Of a stretch of DNA of 38,542 nt, positions 7,052 to 31,198 are shown in pieces. Location: the NCBI GenBank assembly GCA_027491935.1, contig JAOZGB010000014.1:1-38542 (forward strand), given 5' to 3'. The notes beneath the pieces are model-generated. The model was not told the DNA's origin and did no database searches. It was given only the letters and a program-made list of their open reading frames with translations. This DNA comes from Thermoproteota archaeon (GTDB lineage Archaea; Korarchaeota; Korarchaeia; Korarchaeales; JAOZGB01). A program made the position numbers and the translations under genes. Positions within the stretch are counted from its first letter, which is position 1. Each line of letters begins with the position of its first letter.

Positions 7052-7070
7052 CTAAGTTGTTAGCGTAGAA

Positions 7071-7156
7071 GCCCCGGTAGCTCAGCTGGCAGAGCGACAG
7101 ACGCGGTGTCGAGCCTTGTAAGCTGTTGGCCGAGGGTTCGAATCCCTCCCGGGGCT
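7071..7156 (+). tRNA. tRNA-Thr(TGT) with 13-nt non-canonical intron in the anticodon stem (29/30 or 30/31)
   Basis: GCCCCGG/CCGGGGC acceptor, U73. Removing GACGCGGTGTCGA gives ACAGC-CTTGTAA-GCTGT. Confidence 0.85.
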
Positions 7157-7209
7157 TTCTCAACTCTTTTACTATTATTCGCCATTCATGCTCTATTCTT
7201 GAAAAGAAG

Positions 7210-7295
7210 AGCCCCGGGCGGGATTTGAACCCGCGGCCTACGGCTTTCAGGAGAGTTTACCGGGCCGTCGCACTACCTGGCTGTGCTACCGGGGC
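7210..7295 (-). tRNA. tRNA-Thr(GGT), probable; 12-nt intron at 37/38 and C at position 33
   Basis: Same acceptor stem and U73 as the neighbouring Thr tRNA. ACGGC-CCGGTA[AACTCTCCTGAA]A-GCCGT. Confidence 0.72.
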
Positions 7296-11703: not shown

Positions 11704-11745
11704 TGTAGCTTTCACCATTTGAAATAGGGAAGTGCTGATGATAAA

Positions 11746-11832
11746 TGGGCCCGGTGGGATTCGAACCCACGACCTCTCGGTTATCAGCTTCACCCAAGGT
11801 CGAGCGCTCCAACCAGGCTAAGCTACGGGCCC
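11746..11832 (-). tRNA. tRNA-Ile(GAT) with 12-nt non-canonical intron (~11789-11800)
   Basis: GGGCCCG/CGGGCCC acceptor. Removing ACCTTGGGTGAA gives CTCGG-CTGATAA-CCGAG. Confidence 0.83.
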
Positions 11833-11835
11833 ATG

Positions 11836-21982: not shown

Positions 21983-22701
21983 GTGACATGGTTGGAAGAT
22001 GAGAATCTACGTAGAAGAGAACTTTGTAAAAAACTTATCAAGAGCGGGATTATTAAATCTGAGAGACTGGCCAAGGTATGTGAAAGGGTTCCAAGACACA
22101 TTTTTGTTCCAAAAAGGCTCATTAGAGATGCTTACACAGATATTCCATTACCCATTGGTGAGGGACAGACTATTAGCGCGCCACACAGTCGCTGACCGCA
22201 GCGGCTGGGCGAAACATGGTGTTCATAATGAATGAGCTATTGGATTTAAAGCCTGGAATGTTGGTATTTGAAGTTGGAACAGGAAGTGGATATCATGCTG
22301 CAACTATTGCTGAAGCCGTAGCTCCATCAGATATTTCACCGGGGGGCTGGGGTCATGTTTATACCTTCGAAATTATACCGCATCTTGCTTTTAGAGCATA
22401 TAAGAACCTTAAAAAGGCCGGCTACTTAGATAGAGTAACTGTTATTTGCGGAGATGCTAGTAAGGCGTTTACTTTAAGGATAAAGGCGGACAGAATTGTT
22501 ATTACAGCCTCCTCACCAAAGATTCCAACATGGCTATGTAGTTTCTTAAAAGATAACGGGATTCTCCTTTCCCCGGTAGGACCACCGAGTTTCTTATATC
22601 CGCAGAAGCTTGTGAAACTCGTTAATAAAAAGGGGAAGGTTGATATAGAGGAGTATGGTTATGTATCGTTTGTCCCGTTAAGAGGGGAAGCTGGATGGTA
22701 A
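21983..22701 (+). CDS. pcm: Protein-L-isoaspartate O-methyltransferase, proposed spliced CDS: join(21983..22184,22214..22701), 229 aa
   Basis: Exon 1 ends ...[16 protein letters not shown], exon 2 continues [35 protein letters not shown]. 202 + 488 = 690 nt, which is divisible by 3. Confidence 0.85.
22185..22213 (+). other. Candidate 29-nt BHB pre-mRNA intron in pcm
   Basis: ACAGTCGCTGACCGCAGCGGCTGGGCGAA. Central helix CGCC(22179-22182)/GGCG(22208-22211); 3-nt bulges ACA (22183-22185) and AAA (22212-22214); inner 9-bp hairpin CAGTCGCTG-accg-CAGCGGCTG. Confidence 0.8.
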
Positions 22702-31106: not shown

Positions 31107-31193
31107 GCTCCGGTGGTGTAGCCCGGCCAACGTTGGCCGAAAGCATAACGGCCTCTCGAGCCGTAGACGCGGGTTCAAATCCCGCCCGGAGCA
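31107..31193 (+). tRNA. tRNA-Glu(CTC) with ~12-nt intron in the D-loop (~31129-31140)
   Basis: GCTCCGG/CCGGAGC acceptor; ACGGC-CTCTCGA-GCCGT. D-arm GTGT-AGCCCGGCC[AACGTTGGCCGA]AA-GCAT. Confidence 0.87.
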
Positions 31194-31198
31194 CTCTA

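Follow-up and report, generated by a model that had tools for sequence, protein, structure and literature searches.

A candidate bulge-helix-bulge intron in the coding sequence of pcm recurs at the same codon in Bathyarchaeia, Asgard archaea and the host phylum

The window, i.e. the whole 38,542-nucleotide stretch of DNA that was analysed, contains two open reading frames on the forward strand (21983-22195 and 22216-22701) that jointly code for protein-L-isoaspartate methyltransferase (Pcm). Each half alone matches Pcm protein models, with bit scores of 61.6 and 138 against NF010549, and the fusion of both reaches 215.4 and covers one Pcm model nearly end to end. The 229-amino-acid Pcm reading frame becomes whole again when the 29 nucleotides at 22185-22213 (ACAGTCGCTGACCGCAGCGGCTGGGCGAA) are excised, which joins GQTISAPH to MVFIMNELL. 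The first exon (21983..22184) begins at a presumed GTG start, as listed, and runs to the first base of the junction His codon. In the second exon (22214..22701), AC completes this codon and is followed by ATG GTG, with the stop codon at 22699-22701. The split and the boundaries of the 29-nucleotide insert had been given in a preliminary description of this DNA and proved correct to the base. The host assembly (456 kb, 67% complete) holds a single copy of pcm.

The insert and its flanks can be drawn as a bulge-helix-bulge (BHB) motif, with a 4-bp central helix and two 3-nt bulges on opposite strands. The exon arm CGCC (22179..22182) pairs with the intron arm GGCG (22208..22211), the 5' bulge ACA occupies 22183..22185 and the 3' bulge AAA occupies 22212..22214. 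Between the bulges lies an inner hairpin of 9 bp with an ACCG loop (22186..22207), formed by CAGTCGCTG (22186-22194) and CAGCGGCTG (22199-22207). RNA folding reproduced the central helix, the inner helix and the 5' bulge, with a minimum free energy of -25.2 kcal/mol and a z-score of -2.5. The tRNA-splicing endonuclease EndA cleaves after the second base of each 3-nt bulge, which predicts cuts after 22184 and after 22213, and this predicted boundary coincides exactly with the one that restores the frame. As AC is repeated at both ends of the insert, the registers 22185-22213, 22186-22214 and 22187-22215 yield an identical spliced sequence, and the first was chosen because the EndA rule picks it. 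A strict BHB scan, which for the host covered the window on both strands, returned 94 loose matches. Only one of these had at least three G-C central pairs and at least seven inner pairs, and only one restored a reading frame; in both cases it was 22185-22213. A stable outer helix is not found, since a single G-C pair is followed by mismatches beside the 3' bulge. This is a relaxed BHB form, as in the hBH and HBh' variants, and is compatible with membership of the class. The geometry, the predicted cleavage boundary and the weak outer helix are as the preliminary description had them. Group I and group II introns possess a catalytic RNA core of hundreds of nucleotides, for which the pcm introns, at 20-33 nt, are too short, and this identity was rejected.

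The insert is no rarity of a single genome: at least 133 archaeal genomes from several phyla carry a pcm intron at the identical codon, with differing sequence and length. A protein search of 61 genomes, made without any assumption about structure, detected pcm split at the same codon in six relatives, whose inserts vary in sequence and length and all start after GCGCCAC and end before ACAT. A pattern search of the host phylum located the intron in 7 of 29 genomes, belonging to families f1, f2 (genera g3, g4 and g6) and f3; genera g2 and g5 and families f4 and f5 were without it. When 84,980 named species genomes were scanned with the pattern, 36 matches were obtained (20 archaeal and 16 bacterial). 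All 20 archaeal matches were pcm, interrupted at the same codon, in Bathyarchaeota, Baldrarchaeota, Njordarchaeum guaymaensis, Thermoproteota MAGs and unplaced archaea. Unrelated sequences without the hairpin made up the 16 bacterial matches, which served as a natural control, with a mean of 0.44 inner pairs versus 6.75 in the archaeal matches. In viral contigs, a pattern search gave two matches, neither of them in pcm. A covariance model built from 21 introns was then used to search Bathyarchaeia and Asgard genomes. The intron was found in 112 of 257 Bathyarchaeia genomes, alongside a further 19 intronless junctions of exactly 42 nt, and in 13 of 228 Asgard genomes; one unplaced archaeon also carries it at the identical codon. 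Approximately 209 of the 257 Bathyarchaeia genomes gave a convincing Pcm match and roughly half of these are intron-bearing, the query being an approximate Pcm-like sequence that served for counting homologues only. Intron-sized matches in a broader sample of 394 archaea were confined to the seven intron-bearing genomes of the host phylum and one Asgard genome.

Covariation was assessed on the 21 introns that had not been selected for structure, which are a less biased test than the larger set of 52 introns found with the structure model. The 21 introns gave a covariation score of 0.421 (0.134 +/- 0.021 when shuffled) and 144 contiguous inner pairs (13.9 +/- 4.8 in shuffles). Among them, 93% of cells pair and seven of the eight aligned inner pairs have changed on both sides; the pairing signal was lost when the partner strand was slid out of register. 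The central helix is 100% paired in the 52 aligned introns. Two Asgard genes show compensatory changes across the exon-intron boundary: a GCG-to-GCA change in the exon codon turns the exon arm into CACC, and the intron arm reads GGTG in place of GGCG. Predicted cleavage after the second bulge base restores full-length Pcm in all 52 cases (195-268 amino acids, one of them truncated at the edge of its contig), and translation without splicing always meets an early stop. Intron lengths of 20-33 nt leave a remainder of 2, 1 or 0 on division by three in 26, 19 and 7 cases, respectively. The spliced junction codon is invariably C|AC or C|AT, both encoding His, and in 12 of the 52 genes the unspliced junction codon is CAG, CTC, CTT or CGC, so that His arises only through splicing. 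Intronless pcm genes (L163-L181) display varied codons at this place, such as GCC CCC, GCT CCT and GCA CCC, and nearly all intron carriers have GCG CCA. The intronless genes look as if they had been released from the constraint of the central helix.

These data make it very probable that a BHB intron of the tRNA type, spliced by EndA and the ligase RtcB, interrupts the coding sequence of pcm and belongs to a same-site family present in at least 133 genomes. The BHB reading given in the preliminary description is strongly supported by the shared site, the covarying helices and the intron lengths in all three frames. Programmed translational bypassing, in which the ribosome would hop over the hairpin and the RNA would never be spliced, would also account for a short gap with a hairpin inside a coding sequence, and would free the gap length from the need to be a multiple of three. 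Such bypassing is known from T4 gene 60 and is expected to employ matching take-off and landing codons. The codon before the gap is variable (CAC in 25, CAT in 15, CAG in 6, CTC in 4, CTT in 1 and CGC in 1), the triplet before landing is NAC or NAT with all four first bases, and take-off and landing are therefore unmatched; moreover, His cannot be read before the gap in 12 of 52 genes. The invariant 4-bp helix, the 3-nt bulges and the compensatory changes between exon and intron are what EndA requires. Bypassing was rejected on the codon mismatch and the exon-intron covariation, and is considered very improbable. A similarly slight chance is given to two separately translated pieces that assemble into one enzyme, the second starting from its own ATG (22216) behind the weak ribosome-binding site GGGCGA. 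An ATG does follow the intron in nearly all cases, with a G-rich stretch just upstream, and two Asgard loci (L147 and L154) even have GGTGA, a good ribosome-binding site. However, the Met is conserved in intronless orthologues too, so the ATG has another reason, and one genome (G007) has ATT in its place. The break would also run through the conserved motif GQTISAPHM, and the split-gene reading was rejected because it leaves unexplained both the covariation of the exon arm CGCC/CACC with the intron and the placement of a hairpin at a fixed 3-nt bulge. Gene decay or assembly error, which could be suspected in an incomplete assembly and in view of sporadic rtcB frame errors in related MAGs, is the least credible explanation, being contradicted by the occurrence of different intron sequences at one shared site in 133 genomes that come from independent studies, by the continued conservation of both exons and by the single pcm copy of the host assembly.

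According to the BHB intron model, the pre-mRNA would fold with exon CGCC paired to intron GGCG and flanked by the two 3-nt bulges, EndA would cleave each bulge after its second base, and RtcB would join the exons into the message for the 229-amino-acid Pcm with release of a 29-nt RNA. The window intron would be one member of a site-conserved family in Bathyarchaeia, Asgard archaea (including Baldr- and Njordarchaeota) and the host phylum, from which some lineages would have lost it precisely. We infer from the genomic comparisons that pcm RNA would be spliced in the cell, and by EndA and RtcB. EndA domains were detected in every genome tested except the host assembly (25 of 26), and 13 of 15 genomes yielded RtcB; neither was found in the host's own 456 kb (67% complete). 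The host phylum has EndA as one chain of approximately 360-409 amino acids with two EndA domains (seen in six sequences, L096, L097, L099, L100, L103 and L105). This chain apparently represents a fusion of the two subunits that Bathyarchaeia and Asgard archaea make separately, most intron carriers of these two groups having two EndA genes. Broad-specificity EndA types are the heteromeric (alpha-beta)2 and epsilon2 forms (PMC6379350). The rtcB gene contains a single in-frame TGA in G024 (L184), and in G025 (L185) it appears to be shifted in frame by 1 nt. An intron was considered for these two genes and rejected, as no BHB was seen, and the defects look like assembly errors. The window also encodes tRNA-Ala (7070-7157), tRNA-Thr (7209-7295), tRNA-Gln (11745-11833) and tRNA-Cys (31107-31194), whose length of 87-89 nt could accommodate short introns.

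The history of the intron was traced on a tree of 113 Pcm proteins, on which its presence requires nine changes. Three groups have intron carriers in deep branches, and intronless genes fall within intron-bearing Bathyarchaeia, a pattern that precise loss would produce. This was a quick tree, and because its deep nodes are weak and the window sequence sits on a long branch, it does not separate ancient origin, transfer and repeated gain at the same site. That the intron predates the divergence of Pcm among Bathyarchaeia, Asgard archaea and the host phylum, and was kept and repeatedly lost, is a tentative reading that we lean slightly against. If it were ancient, EndA-dependent mRNA splicing would be an old and perhaps regulatory trait of the archaeal branch near the eukaryotes. 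Njordarchaeum guaymaensis GB_154 (G064) has two intron-bearing pcm copies in one MAG (L143 and L154). One of them groups with Asgard Pcm and the other with Bathyarchaeia, and the latter may reflect transfer or bin contamination.

The preliminary description had also suggested a link between splicing and the KEOPS gene bud32, located downstream of pcm. The gene order pcm-bud32-ham1-rps15-recJ, part of the longer block pth2-truD-pcm-bud32-ham1-rps15-recJ, is conserved in the host phylum whether the intron is present or absent. A check around pcm in Bathyarchaeia and Asgard archaea, made on a set of loci of which some are short, found neither bud32 nor the other neighbours of this block. The coupling is unsupported and was rejected.

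If these RNAs are spliced, the tRNA machinery also processes mRNA in Bathyarchaeia and Asgard archaea, and among the examined Bathyarchaeia that have pcm it does so in about half. Gene prediction programs will report such genes as two pieces, so that pcm may have been annotated as broken or absent in many of these genomes. Recurrent gain or loss at one fixed position allows tests of how introns are gained, lost and transferred in archaea, and of whether the EndA subunit type limits mRNA introns. The literature search, outside which most subscription journals and bioRxiv lay, found no paper on a BHB intron in pcm and leaves priority unproven; the preliminary description had named cbf5 as the known case and none for pcm. 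A study from 2020 describes a BHB site in the 5' UTR of HVO_1309 in Haloferax volcanii as an EndA substrate in mRNA, and lists cbf5 as the only other archaeal mRNA BHB intron reported (PMC7714728). The HVO_1309 site differs from the pcm intron, which lies within the coding sequence. Archaeal BHB tRNA introns share with the pcm intron the 4-bp helix, the two 3-nt bulges and presumed processing by EndA and RtcB, whereas the pcm intron resides in an mRNA without a tRNA body, has an exon arm constrained by codons and possesses a weak outer helix. The closest counterpart is the pre-mRNA intron of cbf5 in Crenarchaeota, known from Desulfurococcales and Sulfolobales (Watanabe 2002; Yokobori 2009, PMC2738675). 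Both are BHB or BHB-like introns in a coding sequence, with a conserved site, a variable interior, an exon-intron helix and lineage-specific losses. EndA cleavage has been demonstrated for cbf5 and is presumed for pcm. The pcm intron is located in another gene, and so outside the cbf5 family, and it occurs in Bathyarchaeia, Asgard lineages and the host phylum. As cbf5 is the only published coding-sequence BHB intron that was found, pcm would add a second gene.
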